Of a stretch of 36,834 nt of DNA, positions 1 to 12,177 are shown piece after piece (position 1 is the stretch's first letter; every line of letters starts with the position of its first letter). Source of the stretch: a virus; IMG/VR virus record IMGVR_UViG_3300027782_000008, positions 1 to 36,834 of that record, one strand, 5' to 3'. The notes under the pieces are model-generated. The model worked only from the letters and a program-made list of their open reading frames with translations, was not told the DNA's origin and did not search any database. The translations under genes were made by a program, and so were the position numbers.

Positions 1-127
1 GCATAATCATCAAAAACGGTTTTAAAGCGACGACCTAACATAACTGACACAATGCCTAAAGCAGTTTGAGCTGCAAAGGCCGGTTGTGGAATCTTAGCGG
101 TTGCATTGTAATAGTCTTGAATATCAC
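1..127. repeat. Terminal overlap copy 1 (circular assembly)
   Basis: These 127 bases are identical to the last 127 bases of the window (36708-36834). An exact overlap of this length at both ends of a contig is the usual signature of a circular molecule closed at an assembler k-mer of 127. The primase-polymerase reading frame continues in frame through it. It is therefore not a biological terminal repeat. Confidence 0.93.
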
Positions 128-1160
128 CCAAAATACCCGGCAACCGTTCGACTTCACTATAAATGGGTGCGTCTGGTTTGATATACAGTAATTCAGGTGA
201 CCAAGTGATTTGACTAATCACCGGCTTATTAACCCATCCGGCCTCCATTGCCATTTTAAAAATGGTTGCTTTGGTAATACCGGATAGGCCTTTACGCTTA
301 AAACTGTTCCAGACTTTGAGCTGGTCTTTGTAATCGTATTTATCAGAGCGTTGTGACCAATCGCACCACAAGTCAAAACCAGCACCACCGCCTAAATCAT
401 TTTGTAGAGCCATACCGACTTGATACCAAATATCACGATCAGACGCATCAATAAAAAATAAAGCGGCTTCCAGTTCGATTAATTCACCATCGGATAAAGG
501 AATGGCAGGACTGACGGCATCATCAGCTAATACCATCTTAGTACGTGCTAAATCACGCAACCAATCCGGTAATGGAGAAGCAATCGCACCATTTAAAGGA
601 TCACTGGATGCTTCCCAGGTATACGAGCCACCACTAAAATGATTAGAGGGTTCAAGGACAATATAACCGTTTGCTTTAACATCAATGCCTTTACCCAATT
701 TACCGGGTAAGGTTTGATTAGCGGGTAATTGAAAGATTCGATGCTCACCACCACCGCCGGTATATTGCAAAACATCCGATAATAAAGGTCCGTGTTCGGC
801 TTCTATCGTTTCAATGGTATACATACCCCCATTACGCGGATCTATATCAATGGCACATAAATTGGATGAGGCTAAATGAGCCGCGATGTTGGCTTCTGGA
901 TAACTACCCCACCACTTCTTAATCAGTGCGCGGTCAGTGGTTGCATTGTCTTGTCCTTTGGGCGCTAACTTATGCAGAGGATGCTTGCCTGAATTACTGC
1001 AATCTAATTCACCGCACGCACATTGACCATCTGCCTTGACATTCCAAAGCGGGAAAATATGCCAGCCTAAAGCCGCATAACGCAACGCATAGCCCAGCCT
1101 TGATTCAAGATCAATGGTTGGCTCTGCATTACTAACGACTAACTCTATTTGTGCTGACAT
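1..1160 (-). CDS. Prim-Pol/DUF3987 replication protein, N-terminal part
   Basis: This is the N-terminal 386 or so residues of a 761-residue protein whose remainder is at 35582-36707 across the circular junction; 1160 + 1126 bases is exactly 762 codons. Residues 20-200 look like a bifunctional archaeo-eukaryotic primase-polymerase domain: the catalytic AIDID carboxylates fall at D105/D107 and a GGGGEHR motif puts a histidine at 140. Around residues 210-300 a PriCT-like segment follows (IDASDRDIWYQVGMAL). A cysteine-rich insert (CACGELDC, residues 47-54) may bind zinc. The product probably primes phage DNA synthesis. ATG at 1160 has no clear Shine-Dalgarno sequence. The gene sits just downstream of the terminator of the leftward switch genes. 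Confidence 0.87.
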   Translation of the reverse strand, partial: MSAQIELVVSNAEPTIDLESRLGYALRYAALGWHIFPLWNVKADGQCACGELDCSNSGKHPLHKLAPKGQDNATTDRALIKKWWGSYPEANIAAHLASSNLCAIDIDPRNGGMYTIETIEAEHGPLLSDVLQYTGGGGEHRIFQLPANQTLPGKLGKGIDVKANGYIVLEPSNHFSGGSYTWEASSDPLNGAIASPLPDWLRDLARTKMVLADDAVSPAIPLSDGELIELEAALFFIDASDRDIWYQVGMALQNDLGGGAGFDLWCDWSQRSDKYDYKDQLKVWNSFKRKGLSGITKATIFKMAMEAGWVNKPVISQITWSPELLYIKPDAPIYSEVERLPGILGDIQDYYNATAKIPQPAFAAQTALGIVSVMLGRRFKTVFDDY

Positions 1161-1207
1161 ATTGTTTTAAGTTTGTTTTGTGGCATAATCATTCTCGTAG
1201 TGTTAAG

Positions 1208-1247
1208 AAAAGCCCTGTTGATCTTGTCGGATGCAGGGCTTTTTTTT
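1208..1247. terminator. Intrinsic terminator between switch genes and primase
   Basis: The 10-bp arms AAAAGCCCTG (1208-1217) and CAGGGCTTTT (1234-1243) form a perfect stem with a 16-nt loop and an eight-T run on the plus strand. On the minus strand, where the switch genes arrive, the stem ends in only four Ts. It can stop leftward transcription from the Cro-like operon before the primase, making it a candidate target for antitermination. Confidence 0.8.
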
Positions 1248-1296
1248 GCGAAATTTTTAGTTTTTAAATGGTATCTACTACCGAAACCCAGTACAC

Positions 1297-1494
1297 CTAA
1301 AGAAGCTTTATATCTAAAGCATTAATCAGTATCCTAGCCTCAGCACGTCGCTTCTCGACTAACTCAAGGCAGGCAATATGAACAAATTCAGATACCGCCA
1401 TTTCATCAACCTGGCTCAAGCCAATCAGGGCTTTTTCAACACTTTCAGTCGTTTTGAACGTAATGGGCTTCATGCGTTTTTCAGGATGTTCCAT
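1297..1494 (-). CDS. Small ribbon-helix-helix-like protein in the Cro-like operon
   Basis: A 65-residue protein. Its pattern, a short beta stretch (MKPITFKTTESV) followed by two helices (EKALIGL..., SEFVHIACLELVEKR), resembles Arc/CopG ribbon-helix-helix regulators. It starts two bases after the stop of the upstream HTH gene, so the two are co-transcribed from the leftward switch promoter. It could be a second early regulator of the lysis-lysogeny decision. The family call rests on pattern only; an unrelated small DNA-binding accessory protein is possible. Confidence 0.65.
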   Translation of the reverse strand: MEHPEKRMKPITFKTTESVEKALIGLSQVDEMAVSEFVHIACLELVEKRRAEARILINALDIKLL

Positions 1495-1496
1495 GA

Positions 1497-1691
1497 TTAC
1501 TTACCAAAAATGTCGGGGCGGATTTCTTCGCGGGGGATGCCGAAAAGAAGCGCAATCTTTTTAGTGTTTTCTACTGATGGTTTTTTTTGTTCTAAAACCC
1601 ACGCTGAAAACGTAGATGTAGAAACACCTAGTGCTTTACATGCTTTTTCTTGACTGCCATGAGTGGCAGAAATCTTCTGGAATATATTCAT
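1497..1691 (-). CDS. Cro/YdaS-like HTH regulator
   Basis: A 64-residue protein. Residues 12-50 form a Cro-type helix-turn-helix (GSQEKACKALGVSTSTFSAWV), and it ends in REEIRPDIFG, which is characteristic of YdaS/Cro-like phage regulators. It is the first gene leftward from the promoter at 1698-1726, whose spacer contains an operator-like site. By position opposite the repressor it is the expected antirepressor (Cro) of the switch. It is followed after 2 bp by a ribbon-helix-helix-like gene. Confidence 0.82.
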   Translation of the reverse strand: MNIFQKISATHGSQEKACKALGVSTSTFSAWVLEQKKPSVENTKKIALLFGIPREEIRPDIFGK

Positions 1692-1697
1692 GATTCA

Positions 1698-1726
1698 ATT
1701 ATCCACCGATAAGGGATATTTTACAA
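1698..1726 (-). promoter_or_regulatory. Leftward switch promoter
   Basis: Read on the minus strand: TTGTAA, a 17-bp spacer, then GATAAT, followed within a few bases by the Cro-like start codon at 1691. The spacer and the -10 are covered by an operator-like site at 1701-1717. The layout and much of the sequence match the rightward early promoter at 3400-3427, which supports both calls. Confidence 0.72.
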
Positions 1727-1773
1727 CCATTAATTGTGGATTCGATAAAGAATATAATCCACTGATGGAATAT
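1701..1773. promoter_or_regulatory. Operator cluster 1 (three 17-bp sites)
   Basis: Three related 17-bp sites. 1701-1717 is ATCCACCGATAAGGGAT, with ATCC/GGAT ends. 1725-1741 is AACCATTAATTGTGGAT. 1757-1773 is ATCCACTGATGGAATAT. The first two start 24 bp apart, and the first lies in the leftward promoter. The second lies in the repressor promoter and the third covers the repressor start codon. GTGGATT (1736-1742) and AATCCAC (1756-1762) also form a perfect inverted pair. The sites resemble one another and those at 3385-3424 and are the likely binding sites of repressor and Cro-like protein. Confidence 0.65.
1721..1749 (+). promoter_or_regulatory. Repressor promoter (PRM-like)
   Basis: TTACAA (1721-1726), a 17-bp spacer and GATAAA (1744-1749) read rightward. 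The -35 hexamer is the same six bases, read on the other strand, as the -35 of the leftward promoter. Predicted transcription would begin near 1756, only about nine bases before the ATG at 1765, so the message would be nearly leaderless, as with lambda cI from PRM. Confidence 0.5.
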
Positions 1774-2439
1774 TTAGATTATGCAAAGCGATTAAAAAGC
1801 CTACAGGTAGCCCAAGGCATAAAAACACAGATAGAACTATCTGCGTGGATGGGGTTTTCTAAGTCTATTGTTAGCGCTTGGATGCGTGGAGAGAAAATAC
1901 CATCAATGGATACGGCTTTAAAAATAGCTGATATGTTTGGTGTTTGTGTTGAATGGCTATTAACTGGCAAAGGATTAAAACACCCAGATGATACTCCCGT
2001 TCTACAAAACTATATCAACGTCACCGACTTAACACCTGCGCAAATACAAGAAACAAACGATTTTATTGCTTTCAAAAGATCGCAAAATTTACCCAAAATA
2101 ACCGAAAATAACACAAATAAAGCCTTGACTACGCCAGCTAAAAATGTGGGGGGGGGGGTAAACTTGGCTATAGACCGCAGGGTGACTGATCGTCTGATAA
2201 AAGAAGGGAACCTTGAGCGTCGACGTTTTTTAGATGAACTGGCAACAGAACAGGATCGTTGTGTTATGGAAAGACACGCAGAAGAAGTCGAAGCCAATAA
2301 GCGTTATGTCGAAATGGTAAAAACAAAATGTAGGGACAACGAGTGTTACTGCGAGCCACCTTGCGAAACCGCTGCCGATCACACTAAAAACATGAGCTTT
2401 AATGACGTATTGGCTTACGCCAGGCGAAAGGATGATTGA
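1765..2439 (+). CDS. Phage repressor (HTH, no peptidase domain), poly-G tract inside
   Basis: A 224-residue protein; ATG at 1765 is chosen because the HTH begins right after it. The frame is open back to 1663, but that stretch is operator DNA. Residues 8-60 are an XRE-type helix-turn-helix (TQIELSAWMGFSKSIVSAWM) ending in EWLLTGKG, typical of CI-like phage repressors. The rest is charged and predicted helical, with a Cys-rich stretch (CRDNECYCEPPC). I see no Ser-Lys LexA/S24 self-cleavage domain, so induction would not use RecA-stimulated autoproteolysis. An 11-G run at 2148-2158 encodes VGGGV near residue 128; a one-base change in its length stops translation at or shortly after it. Predicted to bind the operators at 1701-1773 and 3385-3424. 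Confidence 0.82.
   Translation: MEYLDYAKRLKSLQVAQGIKTQIELSAWMGFSKSIVSAWMRGEKIPSMDTALKIADMFGVCVEWLLTGKGLKHPDDTPVLQNYINVTDLTPAQIQETNDFIAFKRSQNLPKITENNTNKALTTPAKNVGGGVNLAIDRRVTDRLIKEGNLERRRFLDELATEQDRCVMERHAEEVEANKRYVEMVKTKCRDNECYCEPPCETAADHTKNMSFNDVLAYARRKDD
2148..2158. repeat. Eleven-G homopolymer inside the repressor gene
   Basis: Eleven consecutive Gs lie in the repressor reading frame just after the DNA-binding half. With ten Gs the next codon becomes TAA. With twelve the new frame reaches TGA within about ten codons. Runs of this length are mutable by slipped-strand replication and are also error-prone in sequencing. Confidence 0.9.
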
Positions 2440-2441
2440 TA

Positions 2442-2666
2442 ATGAGTACAATAAGCTTTGATACTGACCGACTGGTTGAAGATTTAAAGTCTTCTGGACT
2501 GCCTCATGACCAAGCACGTGCTATTGTGCGCGGACTGGTAGACGCACAAACAGAATTAGCAACTAAAATGGATTTAGTGCAACTAGAGCAGCGCCTAACT
2601 ATAAAGCTTGGCAGTATGATGGTTGTGGCTATTGGTATAGTGGCGGTGTTGGTTAAGCTTATGTAA
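2442..2666 (+). CDS. DUF1640-like coiled-coil protein with C-terminal membrane anchor (copy 1)
   Basis: A 74-residue protein. ATG at 2442 is preferred over an in-frame TTG at 2436 because AAAGGA lies about nine bases upstream. The N-terminus STISFDTDRLVEDLKSSGLP followed by an ARAIVRGLVDAQ helix matches the DUF1640 family. A short coiled-coil (KMDLVQLEQRLTIK) leads to a C-terminal hydrophobic segment (MMVVAIGIVAVLVKL). The gene begins two bases after the repressor stop, so it would be expressed in lysogens. A paralogue lies at 26266-26541. Function is unknown; a host-envelope or exclusion role is only inferred from location. Confidence 0.75.
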   Translation: MSTISFDTDRLVEDLKSSGLPHDQARAIVRGLVDAQTELATKMDLVQLEQRLTIKLGSMMVVAIGIVAVLVKLM

Positions 2667-2724
2667 TTACGTTATACTAGATATACAAGAGCTGATTAAC
2701 AGCCGACGTTTTAGGAGATTAAAA

Positions 2725-2928
2725 ATGAATAAAGACTTTATACGTGGATTTTGGCAAGGGCTTTCTGGTTCAGTATTATGGGAAGCTCCAGAATTTCCAA
2801 AGACTAAACTGCTGCAAATTGCAATCGACAAAAGAACAGATACTGAAAAATTACAGGGCGATTGGAAAAAAATAGGAGGAGATTTTAATGTCGCAATTAA
2901 CAGATTCCAACGGAATAGTGGACGATAA
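2725..2928 (+). CDS. Small hypothetical protein in the repressor operon
   Basis: A 67-residue protein with a good ribosome site (AGGAG about eight bases before ATG). It begins MNKDFIRGFWQGLSGSVLW, a pattern I associate with short phage proteins of unknown role, and the remainder is basic and polar. Its last 41 bases overlap the start of the DUF2335-like gene in another frame, so the two are probably translated together. No function can be assigned. Confidence 0.65.
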   Translation: MNKDFIRGFWQGLSGSVLWEAPEFPKTKLLQIAIDKRTDTEKLQGDWKKIGGDFNVAINRFQRNSGR

Positions 2929-3265
2929 CAACGATAATAGCGCAATTATTGCATCTCAATGGCAAGGCCCACTCCCTCCTCCATCAGTATTAAAAGATTT
3001 TGATTTAATTATTGAAAATGGGGCAGAACGTATCATGCACATGGCAGAGCTTGAGCAAATCCATAGACATGATTATGAAATAAAAATATTAAGACAAGAA
3101 TCATCATCAATATTTAATGGGCAGTGGCTTGGAGCCTTTGCGGCTACATCATCTATAGCAGCTGCTACATTTACCGCTTATATTGGCGCTCATTGGGCAG
3201 TATCATGCGCTTTAGTTGGCGTTCCCATGCTTGGAATAGTAAAAGCAATCGTAAATAGAAAATAA
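2888..3265 (+). CDS. DUF2335-like membrane protein
   Basis: A 125-residue protein preceded by AGGAGG. The segment QWQGPLPPPSVLKDF, then GAERIMHMAELEQIHRHDYE, is the hallmark of DUF2335 membrane proteins. Two hydrophobic segments follow (about residues 80-98 and 103-118). It is the last gene of the repressor transcript and is followed by a terminator at 3291-3314. Membrane proteins made in the lysogen often alter superinfection, but nothing in the sequence proves that here. Confidence 0.78.
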   Translation: MSQLTDSNGIVDDNNDNSAIIASQWQGPLPPPSVLKDFDLIIENGAERIMHMAELEQIHRHDYEIKILRQESSSIFNGQWLGAFAATSSIAAATFTAYIGAHWAVSCALVGVPMLGIVKAIVNRK

Positions 3266-3290
3266 CCATCTAACCACCCAAATCCCCACC

Positions 3291-3314
3291 AAACCGCTTA
3301 ACTGCGGTTTTTTT
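3291..3314 (+). terminator. Terminator of the repressor operon
   Basis: AAACCGC (3291-3297) pairs with GCGGTTT (3304-3310) around a 6-nt loop and runs into TTTT, 25 bp after the DUF2335-like stop codon. It separates lysogenic transcription from the early promoter about 90 bp further on. Confidence 0.82.
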
Positions 3315-3384
3315 GTGCCTATCGAAAAATAAATACTGCGTTTAATCAAACACATAGGGTGTTGCGTGGGCTTTTGTTTGAAAA

Positions 3385-3424
3385 ATCCACTATCGGTGCT
3401 TGCAATAATCCCCTAATGGTGGAT
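3385..3424. promoter_or_regulatory. Operator cluster 2 (two 17-bp sites)
   Basis: 3385-3401 is ATCCACTATCGGTGCTT and 3408-3424 is ATCCCCTAATGGTGGAT, 23 bp apart start to start. The second matches the reverse complement of the site at 1701-1717 at 14 of 17 positions; the first matches it at 13 of 17. They cover the -35 and spacer of the rightward early promoter, so repressor binding would silence the lytic operon. Confidence 0.68.
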
Positions 3425-3427
3425 AAT
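3400..3427 (+). promoter_or_regulatory. Rightward early (lytic) promoter
   Basis: TTGCAA (3400-3405), a 16-bp spacer and GATAAT (3422-3427). The spacer holds an operator-like site. The element matches the leftward switch promoter in order: TTG-AA, ATCCC, GGTGGATAAT. It is the only good promoter seen upstream of the 8.5-kb rightward operon. Confidence 0.72.
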
Positions 3428-3466
3428 ATCCCTCAACAGCACAGAAACACGCTGAAAGATTTAAAG

Positions 3467-3508
3467 ATGTACTCCTCGCCTCACGGCACATTGAAACCCT
3501 CGTCGTAA
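3467..3508 (+). CDS. Possible 13-residue leader peptide
   Basis: An ATG at 3467 opens a 13-codon frame (MYSSPHGTLKPSS) whose TAA stop (3506-3508) lies in the loop of the hairpin at 3497-3524. A ribosome on it would cover the 5' arm of that hairpin. The ribosome site (GAAAG) is weak and no family is recognisable. The call is made only because of its position relative to the terminator. Confidence 0.22.
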   Translation: MYSSPHGTLKPSS

Positions 3509-3524
3509 TGACGGGGGACTTTTT
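3497..3524 (+). terminator. Terminator-like hairpin in the early leader
   Basis: CCCTCGTC (3497-3504) pairs with GACGGGGG (3510-3517) with one G-U pair and a 5-nt loop, followed by AC and five Ts. It lies roughly 60-90 nt after the expected early start site, so early transcription must pass it. It is either an attenuator overcome by antitermination or the end of a short leader RNA. Confidence 0.65.
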
Positions 3525-3530
3525 GGAGAC

Positions 3531-3599
3531 TTATTAAGACTATCTACTCGGCTCATAGTATTGAGCAACAGGCACTGCTGGAGTGGATAGTCTTAATAA
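3531..3599 (+). ncRNA. Long-stem structured element in the early leader
   Basis: TTATTAAGACTATCTACTC (3531-3549) pairs with 3581-3599 over 19 positions, with 18 Watson-Crick pairs and one G-U. The enclosed 31 nt contain a hairpin GCTCA/TGAGC (3551-3566) and a weak CAG/CTG pairing (3569-3580), giving a possible three-way junction. It stands between the terminator-like hairpin and the first early gene. It could be a cis-acting antitermination RNA, a stabilising 5' structure, or a protein-binding DNA site. Confidence 0.55.
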
Positions 3600-3642
3600 T
3601 TTAAACGTAGTAACAACAATAATAATATTTTGGAGAAAACAA

Positions 3643-3846
3643 ATGAATACAAAATTAAGCAAGTTAATCACCATCGCCATCGTTTTTGGCTTAGGCATAG
3701 CAGTTGACCAAGTATATAGCTCAGAAGCTTACACCAAGCTTTGGGTTACTCGTTCAGGCACGTTTTGCATCAAATCTAACCGTATCTATGAACTGACTGA
3801 ACTGGAAACAGCTTATACACCTATCGACAAGGGGTTAATGAAATGA
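3643..3846 (+). CDS. Small protein with N-terminal membrane/signal segment
   Basis: A 67-residue protein. ATG at 3643 has GGAGA seven bases upstream; the longer GTG-initiated frame from 3583 would lie within the leader stem and is rejected. Residues 4-20 (LSKLITIAIVFGLGIAV) form a signal or membrane anchor, and the rest would be outside the cytoplasm. First gene of the early operon, overlapping the next by four bases (ATGA). Function unknown. Confidence 0.7.
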   Translation: MNTKLSKLITIAIVFGLGIAVDQVYSSEAYTKLWVTRSGTFCIKSNRIYELTELETAYTPIDKGLMK

Positions 3847-4079
3847 GCAATTTAATCATGAAAGACCAAGCGCCACGCCTGCGCCAAAGAATGTTGGACG
3901 AACACGATCAGCATTGGCATGAGGAAGAAAAGCAGATGGTAAGCGGCAAGATTGCTTTTGCATTTCTCATGACGCTGGTATTGATTGCATTACTGGCGGT
4001 TTATGTGCCGGTTGAAGCGAGCACGTCATGGCAAGCGGTGTCTGACCAATCGCTAGTTGATATGTACGGGGAGGAGTAA
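3843..4079 (+). CDS. Small single-pass membrane protein
   Basis: A 78-residue protein, translationally coupled to the preceding gene by an ATGA overlap. A highly charged N-terminal 37 residues (DEHDQHWHEEEKQ) precedes one transmembrane segment (IAFAFLMTLVLIALLAVYV, about residues 38-56). A short acidic tail follows. Its early expression suggests a role in takeover of the cell or superinfection immunity, but no family is recognised. Confidence 0.68.
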   Translation: MSNLIMKDQAPRLRQRMLDEHDQHWHEEEKQMVSGKIAFAFLMTLVLIALLAVYVPVEASTSWQAVSDQSLVDMYGEE

Positions 4080-4282
4080 TGAACTTAGAAGTAATCTTAG
4101 ACGGCATTGCCTTTAATGTCGATTTCGACTACCAACCGAAAGAAATGGAAACGATGTATCAGCCAGGCTGCCCAGCAGAAATAGACATCACTGGCGTATC
4201 AATGCAAGGCATTGCAGTAGGGGAAATTATCAACCCTTACTGGATTGATAGAATTTCAGAAGAATTAATGGAGATGCACTAA
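4079..4282 (+). CDS. Hypothetical early protein
   Basis: A 67-residue acidic protein whose ATG overlaps the previous stop by one base (TAATG). The N-terminus MNLEVILDGIAFNVDFDYQP looks like a beta hairpin, and the C-terminus is helical (RISEELMEMH). Position in an unbroken chain of overlapping genes supports that it is real. Function not recognised. Confidence 0.65.
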   Translation: MNLEVILDGIAFNVDFDYQPKEMETMYQPGCPAEIDITGVSMQGIAVGEIINPYWIDRISEELMEMH

Positions 4283-4464
4283 TGAGATTCGACGTCGATA
4301 TGACCGTTAACGGCATGATTCTTTCGATAACGAACATCTTTGCATCATCAAAAGAAGATGCGATTGAGAAAGCTAAAAAAGACGCTTTGCATATGGGTTA
4401 TGCAATTACAACAAAAATCAAAGTGAGGAAGAAACGTGAACACCACGATAAAGTTACTTGTTAA
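4282..4464 (+). CDS. Hypothetical early protein
   Basis: A 60-residue protein beginning at the stop of the previous gene. The layout is strand-helix-strand: MRFDVDMTVNGMILSI, then KEDAIEKAKKDALHMG, then AITTKIKVRKK. Repeating acidic-basic residues suggest a small nucleic-acid or protein-binding fold. The C-terminal 29 bases overlap the next small gene in another frame. Function unknown. Confidence 0.6.
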   Translation: MRFDVDMTVNGMILSITNIFASSKEDAIEKAKKDALHMGYAITTKIKVRKKREHHDKVTC

Positions 4465-4606
4465 ACGGGTTAGATACCTTGAGGGCGTGATTGATTGCCA
4501 AAAAGGTATTTATCCACAGCGTACTACTCGTTATTACTTACAAGGCTATTCCGAGCAATACGCAAAAGATCAGATTTTAAACGAATTAACTGAACCAGCA
4601 TTCTAA
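4436..4606 (+). CDS. Small GTG-start hypothetical protein
   Basis: A 56-residue frame starting with GTG at 4436, with GAGGAA upstream at an appropriate distance. It overlaps the end of the previous gene and fills an otherwise empty gap before the Sak4 gene. The product is basic at its N-terminus (TTIKLLVKRVRYLEG) and contains RTTRYYLQGYSEQYAKDQIL, which looks like a small helical fold. Not recognised. Confidence 0.5.
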   Translation: MNTTIKLLVKRVRYLEGVIDCQKGIYPQRTTRYYLQGYSEQYAKDQILNELTEPAF

Positions 4607-4644
4607 AACGAAAGCGAAGAAAAAACAATTCTAAGGAGTTAAGC

Positions 4645-5517
4645 ATGTCATTTACCTTTCAAAAAGCAGAACGAAAAAAATCAAGGTTACGCCTTGGACT
4701 GACCGGCCCAAGTGGTAGCGGTAAGACCTACGGAGCCTTACAAATAGCCAGCGGTATTGGTGGCAAGATTGCTGTTATTGATACTGAGAAAGGCTCAGCT
4801 TCATTATATTCTACAATGGCTGAATTTGATGTATTAGAACTATCAGCACCTTACACGCCAGAACGCTTCATAGAAGCCATTAACGCCGCTGAAAATGCGG
4901 GTTATGACATTCTGATTATAGATTCAATCACCCATGAATGGAATGGCTCTGGTGGCTGTCTTGAATTAAACGACCAGATTGCCCAGTCAAAATATCGGGG
5001 TAATACCTGGAGCGCTTGGAATGAAACCACCACGCGGCATCGAGCGTTTTTAGACCGCATGATGCAATCAAAGATGCACGTTATTGTGACGATAAGAAGC
5101 AAAACCGAAACTGCCCAGCAAGAAAGTATTACCGGTAAAAAGTCGGTGGTTAAGTTAGGAATGAAAGCCGAACAACGCGACGGGGTTGAGTATGAATTAA
5201 CCACTGTTCTCGACATCATCCACGATGGACATTATGCGGTTGCCAGTAAAGACCGGACCGGCTTGTTTGTAGACAAAGACCCGAAAGCGATTAGCGTAGA
5301 GACTGGAAAGTTATTACTGGCTTGGTTAGATAGTGGTATCGAACCAGAAAAAGAAGAAGTAGAAGCAACGCCCGACTTTTTATCTATGTTGCAAGCGTGT
5401 ACATCAATGCTTGAATTAGGCACTTGTTGGCAATTAATCCCCAATGAATTGAAAAAAACCTACGAACAAACCAAAAACGAACAAAAACAACTTTTAACAA
5501 CTAAGGAAACTATCTAA
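4645..5517 (+). CDS. Sak4-like RecA-fold recombinase/annealing ATPase
   Basis: A 290-residue AAA/RecA-fold ATPase preceded by AAGGAG. Walker A is GPSGSGKT at residues 21-28; the Walker B strand is YDILIIDSIT with D93. The size, the early Walker A and the partner genes match the Sak4 group of phage single-strand annealing proteins, which are reduced RecA/Rad51 relatives. Its role would be homologous recombination and recombination-dependent replication. The stop overlaps the start of the DUF669 SSB-like gene by one base; Sak4 proteins commonly travel with an SSB. The acidic and Lys-rich C-terminal 60 residues are probably an interaction tail. Confidence 0.82.
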   Translation: MSFTFQKAERKKSRLRLGLTGPSGSGKTYGALQIASGIGGKIAVIDTEKGSASLYSTMAEFDVLELSAPYTPERFIEAINAAENAGYDILIIDSITHEWNGSGGCLELNDQIAQSKYRGNTWSAWNETTTRHRAFLDRMMQSKMHVIVTIRSKTETAQQESITGKKSVVKLGMKAEQRDGVEYELTTVLDIIHDGHYAVASKDRTGLFVDKDPKAISVETGKLLLAWLDSGIEPEKEEVEATPDFLSMLQACTSMLELGTCWQLIPNELKKTYEQTKNEQKQLLTTKETI

Positions 5518-6017
5518 TGGCTAATTTATCAGCACTATTCGGCAACAAAGCATTTAACCCAATGGACGTGGAAGAACTGGAGGTTGGTTTTGAACCCGTA
5601 CCAAAAGGCATTTACTCGATCATCATCACTGACTCTGAGTTAGCGGCCAACAAAGCAGGAACGGGAACCAACTTGACCTTAAAGTTGATTATTCAAGACG
5701 GTAAAGCAAAAGGCCGCACCCTGTTTGATAATCTGTGTGTTGTCCATAAAAACGAGATTGCCCAACGCATTGCCCAAACTCGTATGAAACAGATCTGCAC
5801 CGCGCTGCATATTGGGGAAGTTAAAGACACCTCACAATTTCACGACAAACTGATGAAGGTTAGCGTTGATGTTGAGTTAGACGAGTACGGTACGAATAAA
5901 CGTAATGATGGTGTCAAAGTCTATCGAAATGCCATTAAAGCCTATGAAGGCTCTGCTAATAAGCAAGCTTTAGCGGCTGTGGGTATTGAAGAACTAGACG
6001 AAGATATGCCTTTCTGA
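5517..6017 (+). CDS. DUF669 single-strand DNA binding-like protein
   Basis: A 166-residue protein matching the DUF669 pattern: PKGIYSIIITDSELAANKAGTG, then LKLIIQDGKAKGRTLFDNL, then the IAQTRMKQICTALHIG helix. It ends in an acidic ELDEDMPF tip like the protein-interaction tail of bacterial SSB. It sits directly after Sak4 (TAATG overlap), so the two probably work together on single-stranded DNA at replication forks and recombination intermediates. DUF669 proteins are regarded as phage SSB analogues; that assignment here is by family and context. Confidence 0.83.
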   Translation: MANLSALFGNKAFNPMDVEELEVGFEPVPKGIYSIIITDSELAANKAGTGTNLTLKLIIQDGKAKGRTLFDNLCVVHKNEIAQRIAQTRMKQICTALHIGEVKDTSQFHDKLMKVSVDVELDEYGTNKRNDGVKVYRNAIKAYEGSANKQALAAVGIEELDEDMPF

Positions 6018-6232
6018 TGGACCAAGAGCGACGAATATTTTTAGCTGTTCAAACGTATGTTGACGGACGTAAGGTTATCAGGCGTTATTCGCCTGATAGT
6101 CCTCTTGAAAGTAGGCACTTTCAAGAGCAAACCAACGAAGCAAAAGAATGGTTAAGAAAAGCAAATTGGCCTCTATGGACAGATAGATTTTATATACCCG
6201 ATAGCAAACCTTTTGAGATTGATTATGTATAA
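6017..6232 (+). CDS. Hypothetical protein between SSB-like and helicase genes
   Basis: A 71-residue protein with an ATG inside the previous TGA stop (TGATGG) and an end that overlaps the helicase start by eight bases. It is rich in aromatic and charged residues (EAKEWLRKANWPLWTDRFYIP). Its translation is locked to that of the SSB-like and helicase genes, suggesting a replication accessory role. No family recognised. Confidence 0.65.
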   Translation: MDQERRIFLAVQTYVDGRKVIRRYSPDSPLESRHFQEQTNEAKEWLRKANWPLWTDRFYIPDSKPFEIDYV

Positions 6233-7862
6233 ACTTAGAGATTACCAGCAACCAGAACCCATCTGGGATTATTTCAGAGCAAGAAAACAGGATAATTCAA
6301 CCTGTAATCCTTTGGTTGTGCTACCCACAGGAGCCGGTAAAAGCTTGGTTATTTCTGCTTTGGTTAAGGACATGATTGAGCGCTTTGGTGGTCGTCGTGT
6401 TCTTATCCTGGCACACCAAAAAGAATTGTTAACGCAAAACTTTGAGAAGCTTAAATCAACCTATCCTGAATGTGATCCGGGTATTTATTCCGCTTCCCTG
6501 GGAAAGAAGCAAACCAATAATAAGGTGTTGTTTTGTGGCATCCAGTCGGTCCATAACAAGGCGCATAAATTAGGTGATTTCTCACTCATCATTATTGATG
6601 AATGTCATTTGATACCTAAAAGCGGTGTTGGCATGTATCGAGGGTTTATTAATGAAATGAATAGACTCTGCGGAAAAGTGCCGGTAATTGGCTTAACCGC
6701 TACACCTTACCGCTTGGACAGTGGTTATTTGCATAAAGGTGATAGTGCGCTGTTTACCGGCATTGCACATGAAGTCAGTATTAATGACTTATTGGCACAG
6801 GGTTATTTATCACCGTTAACGACCAAGAAAGTCAGTTTTATTATTGATACCAGCTCTGTTAAAAAACGAGGTGGTGAATTTATCGACAGTGAATTGATGG
6901 CGGTGGTAGATCCGTTAACTGAAAGCGCCTTATTAGATGCACTACCGAAAATAGGCACACGAAAAACAGGCTTGGTGTTTTGCATCACAGTAGAACACGC
7001 CAACCATGTCAGTGCTTATTTAAATGAGTTGGGCATTAGTTGTGCGGTGATTTCAGGCCAGACCAAACGAGCTGAACGTGATTTTTTACTGGATGCGTTA
7101 AAGAAAGGCGAGATTCGTTGTTTGGCTAATGTCAATTGCTTAACGACAGGGGTTGACGTTCCCAACATTGATTTTTTAATCATGTTAAGACCGACGCAAT
7201 CACCTGGGCTTTATGTGCAAATGGGTGGACGGGGTATGCGTTTAGCTGAGTCAAAGTTTGATTGCTTGGTGTTGGATTATGCAGGGAATATAAACCGGCA
7301 TGGACCGATTGATGCCATTACCGTTAGAGAGAAAAAAACTAAAGGTGATGACGGAGAAGCACCCGTTAAATCTTGCCCTGAATGTGAAAGCATTGTTCAT
7401 GCTGCCCGTCGTGAATGTCCTGACTGTGGTTATGAGTTTCCACCACCCGCCTTTAAGGTTGAAAAGACCGCCAGTCGGGAGGCTATCTTAACCCAAGATT
7501 ATGAACCAGAGTGGCGAGCAATTAGCCGGGTAACTTATGCCAGAAATGCAGGCAGAGACGGAAAGCTGGACACTATGCGCGTTGATTATTGGGATGATGA
7601 TGGTTTGTTTCCTATTCGGGTTGCCAGTGAGTTTGTGTGTGTGTTTCATCCAATGGGGTTTCCAAGAGAGATGGCGTTAAGGTGGTTAGCAAATAGATGT
7701 ATTCCTTTTGATGATGATGTAATGGAATTATTGTTAACTGGAAATATTGAAAGGCGAGATTCTAAAAAACCAAAAGAACCCTCACGCTTACTCCTAGACA
7801 CACGCGGCAAGTTTGCAAAGATACTCGATTATGACTTTAGTCAGTTAGAGGAAGCAGCATGA
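6225..7862 (+). CDS. SF2 DEAD/DEAH-box helicase with zinc ribbon
   Basis: A 545-residue protein; ATG at 6225 chosen over an in-frame TTG at 6213. Superfamily 2 motifs are clear: Walker A PTGAGKS (34-40), DECH box (125-128), GLTATPYR, and in the second lobe LVFCITVEHA, LTTGVDVP and QMGGRGMR. A C-terminal zinc ribbon has four cysteines at 384, 387, 398 and 401 (CPEC...CPDC). This architecture is common in phage replication cassettes next to Sak4 and SSB. It probably unwinds DNA, perhaps opening the origin or restarting forks. The next gene starts within its stop codon (ATGA). Confidence 0.88.
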   Translation: MYKLRDYQQPEPIWDYFRARKQDNSTCNPLVVLPTGAGKSLVISALVKDMIERFGGRRVLILAHQKELLTQNFEKLKSTYPECDPGIYSASLGKKQTNNKVLFCGIQSVHNKAHKLGDFSLIIIDECHLIPKSGVGMYRGFINEMNRLCGKVPVIGLTATPYRLDSGYLHKGDSALFTGIAHEVSINDLLAQGYLSPLTTKKVSFIIDTSSVKKRGGEFIDSELMAVVDPLTESALLDALPKIGTRKTGLVFCITVEHANHVSAYLNELGISCAVISGQTKRAERDFLLDALKKGEIRCLANVNCLTTGVDVPNIDFLIMLRPTQSPGLYVQMGGRGMRLAESKFDCLVLDYAGNINRHGPIDAITVREKKTKGDDGEAPVKSCPECESIVHAARRECPDCGYEFPPPAFKVEKTASREAILTQDYEPEWRAISRVTYARNAGRDGKLDTMRVDYWDDDGLFPIRVASEFVCVFHPMGFPREMALRWLANRCIPFDDDVMELLLTGNIERRDSKKPKEPSRLLLDTRGKFAKILDYDFSQLEEAA

Positions 7863-8251
7863 CACCCGTTGATTATGTAAAACGCTTTACGGCTGTATGT
7901 AATCAATACAGCCATCAACCATCAATTGTATGGGCGCATTGTGGTGAAGAAGAACACCAGGTGCTTTGTGATAATGAGGGTGAAGAATGGGATTGGTTTG
8001 AAATATGCCTAACCTTATGGCAACGACCAACAATGGTATGGGATCAGGTTAATACTGCTTTACCAGCTATTAGTTGTGAGAGTTGTTGCCACTATACAAA
8101 ATATCGCATTAAACATACCAAGGCGGAAATTCTTCTTCAAACATGGGAACAGCGCAACAAAAGAACTCACGAGGAATGGTGCGATAAGCATAACAAAGCC
8201 ATACCCGTTACATTTAACAAAAATAATGCCTGTAAAGGATGGAATTTATGA
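7859..8251 (+). CDS. Cys/His/Trp-rich hypothetical protein
   Basis: A 130-residue protein, ATGA-coupled to the helicase. It contains SCESCCHYTKYR and later C/H residues (EEWCDKHNKA, ACKGW), so metal binding is plausible. Tryptophan-rich segments (EEWDWFEICLTLWQRP) lie in the middle. It is likely an accessory replication protein by location, but I do not recognise a family. Confidence 0.65.
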   Translation: MTPVDYVKRFTAVCNQYSHQPSIVWAHCGEEEHQVLCDNEGEEWDWFEICLTLWQRPTMVWDQVNTALPAISCESCCHYTKYRIKHTKAEILLQTWEQRNKRTHEEWCDKHNKAIPVTFNKNNACKGWNL

Positions 8252-8733
8252 ATACATCGCTCTATGAACTGACGACCAGTTATATGCAAGCACTGGATTT
8301 TTTAACAGATCCAGAAAACGAAATAGATCAACAAACCGCTATTGATACGATAGAAAGCCTTGACGGAACAATCGACGACAAGATGCTGAACTTAGGGCGC
8401 TTCATCACTAGCATTGAAGCCCAAGCAGATGCTATCGAAGCCGTTGAAAAACGTCAACGAGCTAGACGTCTATATCTTGTTAAAAAAGCTGTTTGGTTGC
8501 GTGACTATTTAAACGATGCCATGACGACAACAGGCAAGAACAAATTATCAGCTAATGATATTGCTATCTCCTTAGCTAAGTTGCCTGTTTCTGTTCAAGT
8601 AGATGATGAAAGCTTGATCCCTGATGAGTTTTGGAAAATTGAACGCAGTATCGACAAACAACTGATTAAGACATTAGGTGGTTGTGAGGGTGTTCGTATT
8701 GAAAGCAAAGGATTTAGGGTGGCTATAAGATGA
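8248..8733 (+). CDS. Siphovirus Gp157-like protein
   Basis: A 161-residue protein. ATG at 8248 is chosen because AAAGGA sits eight bases upstream, it overlaps the previous stop (ATGA), and Gp157 proteins start with a LYELT motif as here. Features are a helical N-terminal half with acidic repeats, a MLNLGRFITSIEAQADAIEAVEKRQRAR helix pair, and a C-terminal beta region (LPVSVQVDDESLIPDEFWKI). Gp157 occurs in siphophage replication clusters and has been linked to phage resistance in Streptococcus; its molecular role is not settled. Confidence 0.8.
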   Translation: MNTSLYELTTSYMQALDFLTDPENEIDQQTAIDTIESLDGTIDDKMLNLGRFITSIEAQADAIEAVEKRQRARRLYLVKKAVWLRDYLNDAMTTTGKNKLSANDIAISLAKLPVSVQVDDESLIPDEFWKIERSIDKQLIKTLGGCEGVRIESKGFRVAIR

Positions 8734-9092
8734 ACCATTTAATAAATCGCAAAGAAATAGCACAACTGATGGGCGTATCGACAAATCAAGTGGGTGTAAT
8801 GGATGATAGGGGGTTACTCCCCTGTGGTCCGGCTGATTATGTCGATCCTAAAGAAATGTGCCGGGGTAAGCCATCAAAGTTTTACGACCGCGAAATCATG
8901 CTGGACTGGATTGAACGACGCAAAACGGCAAAGTATAAAGTTATTTCTGAAAAGCCCGGCATCAGTTTTAAGCAAGTATTTTCAGGGCAGTTTGAACGTA
9001 GAGAATTGAAGAACCGATGGGGATTGAAAAAGTTGTGCGCTAAACATAGCAACGCGAAAACCGTCACTGTTCAAGTTATAGGGGAATGGTAA
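8730..9092 (+). CDS. Small HTH DNA-binding protein
   Basis: A 120-residue protein, ATGA-coupled to gp157. Residues 5-60 look like a winged-helix MerR/AlpA-type reader: NRKEIAQLMGVSTNQVGVMDDRGLLP, then KFYDREIMLDWIERR. The basic C-terminal half (RRELKNRWGLKKLCAKHSNAK) could add DNA or RNA contacts. It is a possible early or late transcription regulator, and one of few candidates for activating the late promoters. Confidence 0.7.
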   Translation: MNHLINRKEIAQLMGVSTNQVGVMDDRGLLPCGPADYVDPKEMCRGKPSKFYDREIMLDWIERRKTAKYKVISEKPGISFKQVFSGQFERRELKNRWGLKKLCAKHSNAKTVTVQVIGEW

Positions 9093-9251
9093 GTGAAATC
9101 ATATAACGGACACGTTAGCCTAAACCGAGTGCGTAAAGTGAAATGTCCTAAATGTAACGGCATATTTACCACAACAATCAGGATGCGTAAGTATTGCGAA
9201 CCGTGTAGTCCTGCCAGAATGACAGACCCTAGTTTTGCGGTGACTTTATGA
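9093..9251 (+). CDS. Small zinc-ribbon protein
   Basis: A 52-residue protein from a GTG at 9093, two bases after the preceding gene. Four cysteines in two CxxC pairs (CPKC at 18-21, CEPC at 35-38) separated by 13 residues make a zinc ribbon. The N-terminus is basic (NRVRKVK). Its stop overlaps the next start (ATGA). It probably binds nucleic acid or a host protein. Confidence 0.62.
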   Translation: MKSYNGHVSLNRVRKVKCPKCNGIFTTTIRMRKYCEPCSPARMTDPSFAVTL

Positions 9252-9412
9252 AACTCTACGACTTGCCCCGCAATACGTTATTTAAAATTGTTGGCGATAA
9301 ATCAAACACGATCCTGAGACTTGAAAGAATCGACGGCATGTTCTCGGTGTGTTGGGATGAACATGGCGAAGTTGTCCACATAGCAGCTAGTGCGGAAGTG
9401 GAGGCTTTATGA
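9248..9412 (+). CDS. Small hypothetical beta-rich protein
   Basis: A 54-residue frame starting at the ATGA overlap with the zinc-ribbon gene and ending in the ATGA of the next gene. The pattern of strands (NTLFKIVGD, TILRLERIDG, FSVCWDEHGEVVHIA) suggests a small beta barrel. It was found by following the overlap chain. No family recognised. Confidence 0.6.
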   Translation: MKLYDLPRNTLFKIVGDKSNTILRLERIDGMFSVCWDEHGEVVHIAASAEVEAL

Positions 9413-9789
9413 GTAAAGAAAGAGAGTTACTTGAAGAATTATCAAACAAGGACATGGTTAACTACTACTACCCAGAACTAATAAATAGGATTAAAGAACT
9501 ACTCGCACAACCTGAACCTGAGCCTGTTGCTTGGTGCATTGAATCAAAAAATTCTGCTGACTGGTGTTTTGCTAAGGATAAAATTGGTGTTATTGAAAAC
9601 GAAAAGTTACTTGATGAAGATTGCGACAGAAGCGATCCATTCCCACTATACACATCACCACTGACCCGTGAGCCTTTGAGCAACATTGTTATAAGAGAAT
9701 TCGCAAATCCTGAGTATATTGTCTGTAATGCCGCTTTTATATCAGGTGTTAGATGGGCAGAACAGCAACACGGTATTGGAGATGAGTAA
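9409..9789 (+). CDS. Phage hypothetical protein with EPVAW...FPLYTSP motif
   Basis: A 126-residue protein. The linker QPEPEPVAWCIES, then DPFPLYTSPLTREPLS, is a mosaic motif seen in many tailed phages in a variable family of unknown role. The N-terminus is a charged helix (KERELLEELSNKD). The C-terminus (ISGVRWAEQQHGIG) resembles the end of the protein at 10039-10344, so the two share modules. Encoded in the early operon; function unknown. Confidence 0.7.
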   Translation: MSKERELLEELSNKDMVNYYYPELINRIKELLAQPEPEPVAWCIESKNSADWCFAKDKIGVIENEKLLDEDCDRSDPFPLYTSPLTREPLSNIVIREFANPEYIVCNAAFISGVRWAEQQHGIGDE

Positions 9790-9950
9790 TGAAAAACGTT
9801 AGAGTGTATATAGAACAAATCCCAGAGCATTTTGACTCTGAATTAAGCATCACTATTACTTGTAAAAAATCAGAAAGACCAGAAGCTCAAGCAATCGTAG
9901 ATTACTTAAGTAGCATAATTAATATTACATTTAAAAGAGGTCCACAATGA
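9789..9950 (+). CDS. Small hypothetical early protein
   Basis: A 53-residue protein whose ATG overlaps the previous stop (TAATG). The alternating pattern KNVRVYIEQIP, then SELSITITCKKSERP, then AQAIVDYLSSIINITFKRG suggests a compact beta-alpha fold. A further eight-codon frame (9947-9973) starts in its stop. Not recognised. Confidence 0.55.
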   Translation: MKNVRVYIEQIPEHFDSELSITITCKKSERPEAQAIVDYLSSIINITFKRGPQ

Positions 9951-10038
9951 TTGAAGATGACGACTATGAGTAGCGAAAATATAGTATGTGGTTCCTTATT
10001 GTTTATATCCATTATTCTTTTTTTGTGTTGAGGTGATT

Positions 10039-10344
10039 ATGAGTAAAGACAAACCCGCTCCTTATGATATGAGCATACACAGCAACTCAAGTGCATTGGC
10101 TTGGACAAAGTTTTTTAGAGAGTGTAATCCAGAATGTAATTTAAATGATGAGGTTATGTTGGGATGGTTCGCAAATGCGATGATGGCGATGCACGATCAT
10201 ATTTACCAAACATCACCACCAAAACGTGAGCCTTTGAGTGATACTGAAATATTTGATTTATGGATAGTTAGCAGTGTTAAACACATTTATGATTTAGTAC
10301 GTTCAGTTGAGAAAGTACATGGTATTGGAGTAGATAATGGATAA
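10039..10344 (+). CDS. Phage hypothetical protein (REPLSDTEI module)
   Basis: A 101-residue protein; ATG at 10039 has GAGGTG upstream, and the longer GTG frame from 9988 is AT-rich leader. It carries PPKREPLSDTEIFDLW and ends EKVHGIG, modules shared by many phage early proteins and by the gene at 9409. The central segment (ECNLNDEVMLGWFANAMMAMHDH) is helical. Overlaps the next gene by eight bases. Function unknown. Confidence 0.7.
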   Translation: MSKDKPAPYDMSIHSNSSALAWTKFFRECNPECNLNDEVMLGWFANAMMAMHDHIYQTSPPKREPLSDTEIFDLWIVSSVKHIYDLVRSVEKVHGIGVDNG

Positions 10345-10549
10345 CTTAACACTACGCGACCACTTTGCAGGGTTGGCTATGCAGGGCTTGTTGGCAAGTC
10401 CTGTGATGGGAGACTGTGCATTACATGATTCAGCCGCTGAGTGGGTAAAAGTGATGAGTAAAGGTGCTTATGATTTTGCTGACGCAATGATTAAAGAACG
10501 TAATAAGCACATGAAAGAACGCCATGAAACATTTGGGGAGGAAGTATGA
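10337..10549 (+). CDS. Small conserved phage protein (LRDHFAGLAMQ type)
   Basis: A 70-residue protein beginning MDNLTLRDHFAGLAMQGLLA and ending in AYDFADAMIKERNKHMKERHE. This two-helix pattern is common in phage early regions as a hypothetical protein. Four-base overlaps join it to its neighbours. Role unknown. Confidence 0.7.
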   Translation: MDNLTLRDHFAGLAMQGLLASPVMGDCALHDSAAEWVKVMSKGAYDFADAMIKERNKHMKERHETFGEEV

Positions 10550-10875
10550 CAATGCCTAGAGTTATTCGAATGAGTCAAGCACCTGCCTATCTTGGCATGT
10601 CCATTCCACATTTTAATGCTCATGTCAGGCCGTATTTAGTTGAAGTTAGAGATGCACATAGCATGATTAGTTTTGACCGGCTTGACTTGGATGCTTGGTG
10701 GGAACAACATAAACAGGCTAACGGAAAGCCAGCAAAGGAGAATCAATCATGGCAAAAAGAACCCCAGGTCTACGAAAGCAAGGCGAAATCTGGCACGTTG
10801 ACAAAGTTATCGGCGGTGTCAACATACGACAAAGCACGGGAGAGAAGGAGCTTGATCAAGCAGAACGCTATTTAG
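10546..10875 (+). CDS. Excisionase-like HTH protein
   Basis: A 109-residue protein. Residues 5-55 are an AlpA/excisionase-type winged helix (IRMSQAPAYLGMSIPHFNAHVRPYL, then ISFDRLDLDAWWEQH). It lies immediately upstream of and overlaps the integrase by 127 bases, the usual place for a recombination directionality factor. The C-terminal 50 residues are basic and unstructured and coincide with the overlap. The likely role is bending attP DNA for excision and possibly repressing int. Confidence 0.72.
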   Translation: MTMPRVIRMSQAPAYLGMSIPHFNAHVRPYLVEVRDAHSMISFDRLDLDAWWEQHKQANGKPAKENQSWQKEPQVYESKAKSGTLTKLSAVSTYDKARERRSLIKQNAI

Positions 10876-11813
10876 CAAGGCTTATTGAGCAATATAGAAA
10901 AGTAAAAGTATATGGTGAAAAGATTGACCGACCCTTTGAGATAGCGGCAGCTCGCTACCTTGATGAGTACGGTCACAAAACATCACTGGATAGAGACATC
11001 ATTAGTTTAGATAAAATCATGCCTTACATTGGGCATATTGAATTATCTAAGATTCACTCCGGTGTGTTTGATGTCTTTATCAGTGATCGAAAGAAAGCTG
11101 GGATAAGTGCAGGCACATTAAATCGTGATATGGCCTCTGTCAGGCGAGTGCTAAAACTGTCAGCAGCAAAGTGGCGTGATGAGAATGGGAAGCCTTGGCT
11201 TGATAATGTACCCATGATGCCTTTAGTTGATGGCATTGAGAGAAAACCAAGACCGATCAGTTGGACTGAGCAGGAACTATTATTAAAAGAGCTGCCAGGC
11301 TACTTGTCAGAAATGGTGTTATTTGCACTCAATACCGGCTTGAGAGATCAAGAAATCTGTGGCATGAAATGGGCCGATGAATGTAAGGTCAGCGGTCTTG
11401 ATACGACCGTCTTCATTATTGATGAAACCCGAACCAAGAATAACCGAGAACGTATTGTGCCATTAAACTCTGTTGCTCGATCAATCGTTGCAGCAAAGCG
11501 TAATAATAAATCTGAATACGTTTTTGACTTCGAAGGTAGAAAGCTGGACAGAATGACAAATCGTGCTTGGCGTAAAGCGAGAGAAACAATTGGCCTTACT
11601 TTGGTTAGGGTGCATGATCTTCGCCATACGTTTGGAATGAGATTAAGAGCGGCTGGTGTTGGTTTTGAGGATCGACAGGATTTGTTAGGGCATCATGCTG
11701 GAAGAATCACTACGCATTATTCGAAAGTTGAGATTGCTCGATTAATAGATTGTGTTGAATTGCTTTGTGAAGCCAGAAAACCAGAATTAACATTAATCAG
11801 GAGAGTTATATGA
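10749..11813 (+). CDS. int: Tyrosine-family phage integrase
   Basis: A 354-residue tyrosine recombinase with AAGGAG seven bases before ATG. The catalytic set is visible: R199 (NTGLRDQEICGMKW), K230 (TRTK), H289 and R292 (HDLRHTFG), H315 (LGHH) and the nucleophile Y324 (THYSK). A basic N-terminal arm-binding segment (residues 1-55) is followed by a SAM-like core-binding domain. It would integrate the phage at the tRNA-Lys-derived attP about 400 bp downstream. The excisionase-like gene overlaps its start and a small Cys-rich gene overlaps its stop. Confidence 0.93.
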   Translation: MAKRTPGLRKQGEIWHVDKVIGGVNIRQSTGEKELDQAERYLARLIEQYRKVKVYGEKIDRPFEIAAARYLDEYGHKTSLDRDIISLDKIMPYIGHIELSKIHSGVFDVFISDRKKAGISAGTLNRDMASVRRVLKLSAAKWRDENGKPWLDNVPMMPLVDGIERKPRPISWTEQELLLKELPGYLSEMVLFALNTGLRDQEICGMKWADECKVSGLDTTVFIIDETRTKNNRERIVPLNSVARSIVAAKRNNKSEYVFDFEGRKLDRMTNRAWRKARETIGLTLVRVHDLRHTFGMRLRAAGVGFEDRQDLLGHHAGRITTHYSKVEIARLIDCVELLCEARKPELTLIRRVI

Positions 11814-12118
11814 GTTGTATTTCGTGCGCTCATTTTTATGCAAAGAATTATGAAAAGAAAGATGGTAATTGCTGTTTATATCCAGAGCATATTATTGTTT
11901 CAAGAGAGCATTATTGTGGGCAAATTGTAATGAGGCCAACATGGTCATCAACAATGGAATCAATATCACCTATACGAGACGCTCAGAATGATAGGAACAG
12001 ATATTGGGATATGTACAACAAAGAAAGAGACGCAAGACTTTTATTGGAGAAAAAAATTAAAACACTAAAGAGTGATATAAAAATCAAGCCCGCTAAAATC
12101 CCGTTAGTGCTTTTATGA
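11810..12118 (+). CDS. Cys-rich, coiled-coil hypothetical protein
   Basis: A 102-residue protein, ATGA-coupled to int. The N-terminal part has metal-site spacing (CISCAHFYAK, then CCLYPEHIIV, then HYCGQ), resembling small phage zinc-binding proteins. The C-terminal half is a charged helix (NRYWDMYNKERDARLLLEKKIKTLKSD). It is the last gene of the rightward operon. Its 3' end contains a CCGTTAG element that may be an integrase arm site. Function unknown. Confidence 0.65.
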   Translation: MSCISCAHFYAKNYEKKDGNCCLYPEHIIVSREHYCGQIVMRPTWSSTMESISPIRDAQNDRNRYWDMYNKERDARLLLEKKIKTLKSDIKIKPAKIPLVLL

Positions 12119-12130
12119 CGGGCATAAAAA

Positions 12131-12165
12131 AAGAGGTCTCCGTCAAAGATAACCTCTTGTTTTTT
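12131..12165. terminator. Bidirectional terminator beside attP
   Basis: AAGAGGT (12131-12137) pairs with ACCTCTT (12152-12158). Six Ts follow on the plus strand and a run of about seven Ts on the minus strand. It ends the rightward early operon and would also stop leftward late transcription that has crossed attP. Confidence 0.85.
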
Positions 12166-12177
12166 ATTCGGTCTTTG

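Follow-up and report, generated by a model that had tools for sequence, protein, structure and literature searches.

Our analysis identifies a structured RNA leader ahead of the first early gene of a temperate, tailed phage, whose genome is represented here by a window of 36,834 nucleotides (the whole stretch of DNA analysed, IMG/VR record IMGVR_UViG_3300027782_000008). The leader is real and selected; structured mRNA leaders of phages are an ordinary kind of element, but this one is new as a family, with exchangeable arms that are unusual. This view rests on computed folds, compensatory changes, modularity, an island of conservation, and the co-variation of a CU-rich element with the Shine-Dalgarno (SD) sequence of the first gene. 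We tentatively read the leader as a cis-acting, multi-armed mRNA element that controls translation of gene 1 after the promoter has fired, a reading to which we give somewhat less than an even chance.

The contig ends overlap by ~127 bp, with the last bases recurring ~100 bases from the start, and a primase frame crosses both ends of the window (positions 1 and 36834), which together indicate a complete circular genome. A cI-like repressor lies at 1663-2439, the head, tail, terminase and lysis genes are on the - strand, and an early operon of 8.5 kb runs on the + strand from 3643 and encodes an AAA_24 ATPase, an SSB-like protein, a helicase, a Mu Gam-like protein and an integrase. The product of gene 1 (67 aa) has no family match. 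As in the preliminary description of this DNA, which had recognised no N- or Q-like protein, none was found among the early proteins tested, in which PHROGs gave no antitermination family; for a Q-like protein the search took in ten other proteins as well. Two repeat features of the genome are recorded here as separate observations. A run of 11 G at 2148-2158 falls within the repressor gene, and in two relatives (L006 and L090) this linker region of the repressor gene contains short repeats of other sequence (AGCCAGCC type), possibly reflecting phase-variable repressors or else assembly noise. Beside the primase gene, at 35352-35386 and about 35575-35595, AATTGACATG occurs in 3.5 copies and, close by, in inverted orientation; these repeats are candidate replication-origin iterons.

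The leader and its surroundings comprise, from 5' to 3', the following features.

3400-3427, + strand: early promoter from a consensus scan (-35 TTGCAA, 16-bp spacer, -10 GATAAT)
3437-3454, + strand: 5'-end hairpin CAGC...GCUG, read from the sequence
3467-3508, + strand: 13-codon frame, ATG at 3467 to TAA at 3508, judged not to be a leader peptide because it is not conserved
3472-3475, + strand: CUCC anti-Shine-Dalgarno element, from SD pairing against permuted partners and from double changes
3478-3487, + strand: small hairpin GCC-UCAC-GGC, from RNAalifold
3497-3524, + strand: terminator-like hairpin and U5 tract, with double changes at paired positions and a weak terminator score
3525-3528, + strand: decoy GGAG (UUUUUGGAGA), which nearly repeats the SD context, from nascent-chain folding
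3531-3599, + strand: three-way junction of stems P1, P2 and P3, covariance model R1
3612-3626, + strand: (AAY)5 run AACAACAAUAAUAAU just 5' of the SD, the sole AAY run of at least five on either strand
3632-3635, + strand: Shine-Dalgarno GGAG of gene 1, read from the sequence and from folding
3643-3846, + strand: first early gene (gene 1), 67 aa with a hydrophobic N-terminus

Transcription from the early promoter is predicted to start at about 3434, and an operator-like inverted repeat (ATCCAC...GTGGAT) surrounds this start region. The promoter/operator block varies among relatives (47-59% identity), and ATCCCTCAACA, directly 3' of it, is common to most of them. The CAGC...GCUG motif also opens the leaders of L090, L091, L092 and L006, and the small hairpin has counterparts in L090 (GGC/GCC) and L091 (GGCC-CGAA-GGCC), with the alignment partly off in L091 and L092. 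The terminator-like hairpin reads CCCUCGUC-GUAAU-GACGGGGG at 3497-3517, followed by AC and then by five U at 3520-3524. In P1 of the junction, TTATTAAGACTATCTACTC at 3531-3549 faces GAGTGGATAGTCTTAATAA at 3581-3599 with all 19 positions pairable (18 Watson-Crick, one U-G), and it encloses P2 (3551-3555/3562-3566, loop UAGUAU, the hairpin spanning 3551-3566) and the 3-bp P3 (3569-3571/3578-3580, loop GCACUG, the hairpin spanning 3569-3580), which directly abuts P1. Related AAC/AAU runs precede gene 1 in L003, L004, L084, L087, L090, L091 and L010; we take the AACAACAAUAAUAAU run to be of the Hfq distal-face/Crc target type, and the AAY-run region gives a weak Rfam match to the 5' end of CrcZ (E 0.087).

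The structured leader put forward in the preliminary description, with a terminator-like hairpin and a 19-position stem enclosing inner hairpins 5' of the first early gene, is confirmed, and its fold is far stronger than chance. The minimum free energy of the leader is -59.2, while shuffles average -34.3 (z = -7.0, with 0 of 200 shuffles as good), the segment 3434-3645 folds with z = -6.8, and among 200-nt tiles over 1-12,200 the one at 3401 is the lowest. The strong fold stops at the start of gene 1, for which z = +0.6. P1 is the top short-loop stem of the entire genome with a score of 19; across 20 Markov-shuffled genomes, the best such stem per genome scored 12-17. The possibility that the stem encodes protein was rejected, since its frames are broken in relatives.

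Relatives were found by protein and pattern searches of viral contigs. The same three-way junction is present in L002 (identical), L003, L004, L084, L090, L091 and L092, while L006, L087 and L010 carry related leaders that do not contain it; in a search of 90 sources, covariance model R1 matches only the window and the junction-bearing loci. Across six distinct leaders, four junction pairs have double changes, and the covariation score is 0.173 versus 0.077 when shuffled (0 of 500) and near zero for slid versions, in a small sample of seven rows with few independent changes per pair. The compensatory changes convert A-U to U-A in P2 and CAG/CUG to CGC/GCG in P3, and the terminator-like hairpin covaries too. 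Since the junction is kept in six distinct leaders with double-sided compensatory changes, the RNA is under selection. The preliminary description had called for a covariation search, and had held that an absence of compensatory substitutions in relatives, along with full read-through in vitro after deletion of the stem, would speak against its reading; relatives do carry such substitutions, in the side hairpins of the stem and in the terminator-like hairpin. Across the six leaders the sequence of P1 hardly varies, with a 3-nt bubble in some, and is conserved beyond the needs of a simple spacer arm; the loops UAGYWU and GCACUG do not change either. This hints that P1 and the loops are recognised by a protein or engaged in a tertiary contact, a role that lies outside the mechanism proposed below. 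Beyond these relatives, no phage record with a similar leader was found in INPHARED, the stem had no match in prophages of 84,980 species genomes (one scan with a strict pattern) or of 369 genomes of one class, and a stem-pattern match in L095, located within a coding region, was dismissed as chance. No Rfam family matched the window or 12 loci at gathering score, and relaxed thresholds gave nothing relevant in the L006 and L087 leaders.

The long arm of the junction invites another explanation, namely that it serves chiefly as an RNase III processing or stability site, with the remainder of the leader protecting the 5' end and no SD switch involved. Long stems are known as RNase III sites in the lambda N leader and in T7 early mRNA (R sites), and the present stem resembles these in being a long stem in an early phage mRNA leader. 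P1, with its 19 positions, and the abutting P3 together provide about two helical turns of double-stranded RNA, enough in length for such a site. Many natural RNase III sites carry an internal bubble, as some relatives do at alignment positions 10-12; the junction lies at a variable distance from its neighbours, and further stems of like kind occur in other leaders. However, conserved terminal loops and a compensated side hairpin are needless for RNase III, the near-invariance of P1 exceeds what recognition of double-stranded RNA needs, and the co-variation of the CU element with the SD is left unexplained. The three-way junction and the conserved loops also set the arm apart from the lambda and T7 sites, and processing here is putative. 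We regard this explanation as rather unlikely.

What favors a cis effect on translation is the relationship between the two ends of the leader. CUCC at 3472-3475 can pair with the decoy GGAG at 3525-3528 or with the SD GGAG at 3632-3635, and the corresponding element/SD pairs in relatives are AACCC/GGGU in L091 and L092 and UAUCUCC/GGAGAUA in L006. In seven leaders, double changes occur in four of the seven CU element:SD pairs, a result reached in 5 of 500 shuffles, and in eight leaders the pairing of each CU element with its own SD beats that with permuted partners (p 0.012). When 17 offsets were scanned, the effect appeared only at the CU position (p 0.015/0.001), with p at least 0.064 at 15 others, and restricting the permutation to the five leaders placed by alignment alone gave p 0.042; few lineages are represented, and visual inspection played a part in placing the CU element of L006, L087 and L010. 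An upstream element complementary to the SD and preserved through compensatory changes is thus found here, on modest statistics and in few lineages, as SD sequestration would have it. This pairing, which was absent from the preliminary description, has better comparative support than the interpretations offered there.

Folding of the nascent chain places CUCC on the decoy with a probability of up to 0.99 as long as the SD has yet to be transcribed, and on the SD with 0.7-0.8 afterwards. Addition of 50 nt of coding sequence lowers the CUCC:SD pairing in the window to ~0.25, which makes the switch not robust in the model and its equilibrium delicate, and 16.5% of shuffled leaders occlude the SD equally well. 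Decoy pairing dominates in L003 and L004, and in L006 the SD is occluded by other means. Two related candidates were set aside: pairing of CUCC with the decoy GGAG as a conserved closing helix, which had one compensatory change (L091) and permutations with p 0.66, and CsrA/RsmA sites, as L091 and L087 do not retain the GGA within the SD.

In the mechanism that we propose, the CU-rich element would be transcribed first and pair transiently with the decoy GGAG, and it would later compete for the true SD. The intervening arms, namely the small hairpin, the terminator-like hairpin and the 19-bp three-way junction, would fold independently and draw the distant ends together. If the arms fold alone and join the ends, any set of self-contained stems could fill their place, as the variety of arms among relatives illustrates, and with distant complementary elements closing a ring of arms, the two ends could co-vary and the arms be free to differ. 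Gene 1 would accordingly be translated from the nascent RNA and damped on the finished RNA, as in the leader of the MS2 maturation gene. Together with P3, with which it is continuous, the 19-bp arm reaches ~22 bp and is a plausible RNase III site, and cleavage may remove the arm or free the ribosome-binding site. The presence of the (AAY)5 run next to the SD suggests that Hfq or Hfq/Crc provides a second input. The translational effect, its timing and the roles of RNase III and Hfq are what we infer from the features above.

Precedents for such timing exist. The MS2 (levivirus) maturation-gene leader is a cloverleaf with delayed SD sequestration (PMC6733600), and in our model the phage leader would resemble it in that an upstream element pairs with the SD across self-contained hairpins, with a transient alternative fold possible. 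Unlike MS2, the leader described here belongs to the early mRNA of a DNA phage, its arms are wholly different, include the 19-bp three-way junction and are exchanged between phages, a decoy GGAG is present, and the switch is a predicted one. The type I toxin mRNAs aapA3 and hok (PMC6733600) likewise have a small hydrophobic first product and CU-rich elements, which in their case mask the SD during and after transcription; the likeness extends to the CU element and the small hydrophobic product alone, with no known antisense RNA or toxicity on the phage side.

The leader also behaves as a unit of exchange. Identity between L090 and the window is 47% in the promoter block, rises to 93% across the hairpin block and 98.6% across the junction, and is 96% from there up to the ATG and 58% in gene 1, and different replication genes lie downstream in L090; a near-identical leader between divergent flanks indicates an island that phages retain or swap as a whole. 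Within this island the arms differ among relatives, with ~150 nt of another structured module between the hairpin and the junction in L084, L091 and L092, and an extra 16-bp stem 5' of the hairpin in L003 and L004. In L006, ~1.1 kb without a convincing gene separates the early promoter from gene 1, the two halves of this leader fold with z of -3.2 and -4.0, and repeated stem modules of the UUUAUACGCAU...AGCCGUAUAAA type occur along it. A further repeated module, UUUAUACG-CAU-variable-AGC-CGUAUAAA, was observed at 2516-2604, 2756-2835 and 2982-3061 of L006 and at 782-855 of L084; its 3x3 internal loop is constant, and its inner helices change by compensation. Near the 5' end of the early leader of five relatives (L003, L004, L006, L084 and L087) there is a pseudoknot-like module, GAUUC-CCGUCGAA-GAAUC-GCAGGACG, located at 2712-2775 in L003, 2068-2135 in L006 and 1398-1456 in L087, with compensatory changes in its first stem in L004 and L087, and in all five it is followed by a boxA-like GCUCUUU. 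The leader of the window does not carry this module, and pattern matches in L098-L101 were rejected as unrelated or coding. Separately, a viral contig of 80 kb (L097) has a stretch similar to the pseudoknot module with two boxA-like sites before an unrelated gene, and L087 has an array of twelve-base repeats (GACGGTTCCGGT type) at 1774-2043, where it separates an early gene from the structured leader.

This modularity raises the broader possibility, which we consider doubtful but worth stating, of a new family of modular phage RNAs that form the 5' part of early transcripts and have an RNA function beyond the timing of one gene. Such a family would share a common frame of 5' hairpin, CU element, terminator-like hairpin, AAY run and SD; it would hold exchangeable long-stem arms, from one in the window (~210 nt) to several in L006 (~1.1 kb), and some sets of arms would include the pseudoknot plus boxA-like module. 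The leader could also be mainly the source of a stable trans-acting ncRNA, for example one that binds Hfq or Nus proteins, of which the window would hold the smallest version. The strongly folded ~1.1-kb leader of L006 with its repeated stem modules is consistent with this, as is the lack of any Rfam family match; but the version in the window is only ~210 nt, the RNA-binding partner and the release mechanism are putative, and the CU:SD co-variation points to an effect in cis, and we consider a primary role as ncRNA quite improbable. GOLLD and ROOL, whose function is unknown, are large structured RNAs found in phages and prophages (PMC12286853), and the L006 leader is comparable to them as a large structured phage RNA; the present leaders differ in lacking an Rfam match, in being part of an mRNA leader, and in the ~210-nt size of the window version.

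The preliminary description had instead drawn attention to transcription, describing an intrinsic-terminator-like hairpin that early transcripts must pass and recalling antitermination of the HK022 put type, with the proviso that the mechanism may differ. As an effective intrinsic terminator the hairpin scores poorly (d = -35 by the d'Aubenton-Carafa formula), with an AC spacer and only five U followed by GG, and no convincing intrinsic terminator was found in the early operon after the leader, from 3643 to 12118. HK022 put RNA precedes the terminators it overcomes and acts on the zinc-binding domain of the RNA polymerase beta' subunit (PMC9378689). The leader shares with put (PMC9378689) the general character of a short RNA of two-hairpin type near the start of an early transcript in a phage with no N protein; it differs in having no sequence or structure match, in lying 3' of the terminator-like hairpin and in its much longer stem. 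A covariance model built from eight put RNAs (R2: HK022 putL, putR and relatives) scored putL at 95 bits and putR at 52.6 bits, and its best match in the window reached 8.4 bits, far from the leader, within which it detected nothing of the put sequence and structure (GAACGGC ... GGUUCAGGAUGAACGGCAAUG, two stems). The put-like reading is thus not supported. In a more general form, the leader RNA would stay with RNA polymerase across the 8.5-kb early operon, in a manner like put or the boxA of rrn operons. Its position just after the early promoter, the failure to find an N- or Q-like protein among those tested, the movement of the leader as a cassette and the pseudoknot-like module with boxA-like GCUCUUU in five relatives would all fit, and it is mainly this boxA-like element that keeps antitermination by another route in consideration. 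Against it, boxA (YGCUCUUUAACA) is absent from 3300-3700 of the window, the operon offers no convincing intrinsic terminator to overcome, and the 19-position stem comes after, not before, the sole terminator-like hairpin, itself weak. We judge this explanation unlikely.

Attenuation is far less probable still. Here the position of a ribosome on a 13-codon leader peptide would decide whether the terminator-like hairpin forms, and the frame that had suggested ribosome-mediated control is indeed present and ends within the hairpin loop. It is not conserved, however: the ATG is missing from L090 despite 98.6% identity in the stem, and in L003 and L004 the frame has no stop in the loop. The frame in the window has no convincing ribosome-binding site and no regulatory codon run, and the terminator is weak.

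Other prophages with the same AAA gene provided further observations. In Pseudomonas AAA_24-type prophages (L126 3280-3441, L127 3032-3158, L118 3361-3489, L119, L122 and L123), near-perfect stems of 19-27 positions enclosing 50-120 nt precede the early genes, with conserved sequences GCTGCATCGGAG...CTCCGATGCAG and GACCGCATTGGC...GCCAATGCGGTC and no Rfam match. In Mannheimia haemolytica, L036 2430-2766 holds a tRNA gene between fully paired stems of 20 and 22 bp, in non-coding sequence before the first early gene, a layout that recalls rRNA operons, and L108, from the same species, has the same two stems. A Sutterella prophage of the AAA_24 group carries a C4 antisense RNA (Rfam RF01695; L114 7547-7633). 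The long perfect stems 5' of this AAA gene in Pseudomonas, Mannheimia and Sutterella prophages have other sequences, and no homology with the stem of the window could be shown.

In summary, the early operon needs control even in temperate phages that have no N-like protein, and in the phage described here an RNA rather than a protein seems to occupy that point, in the form of a leader that matches no family in Rfam and passes between phages as a cassette of stems, each self-contained. If the proposed SD switch is true, a timing trick of RNA phages and toxin mRNAs would extend to the first gene of a DNA phage.
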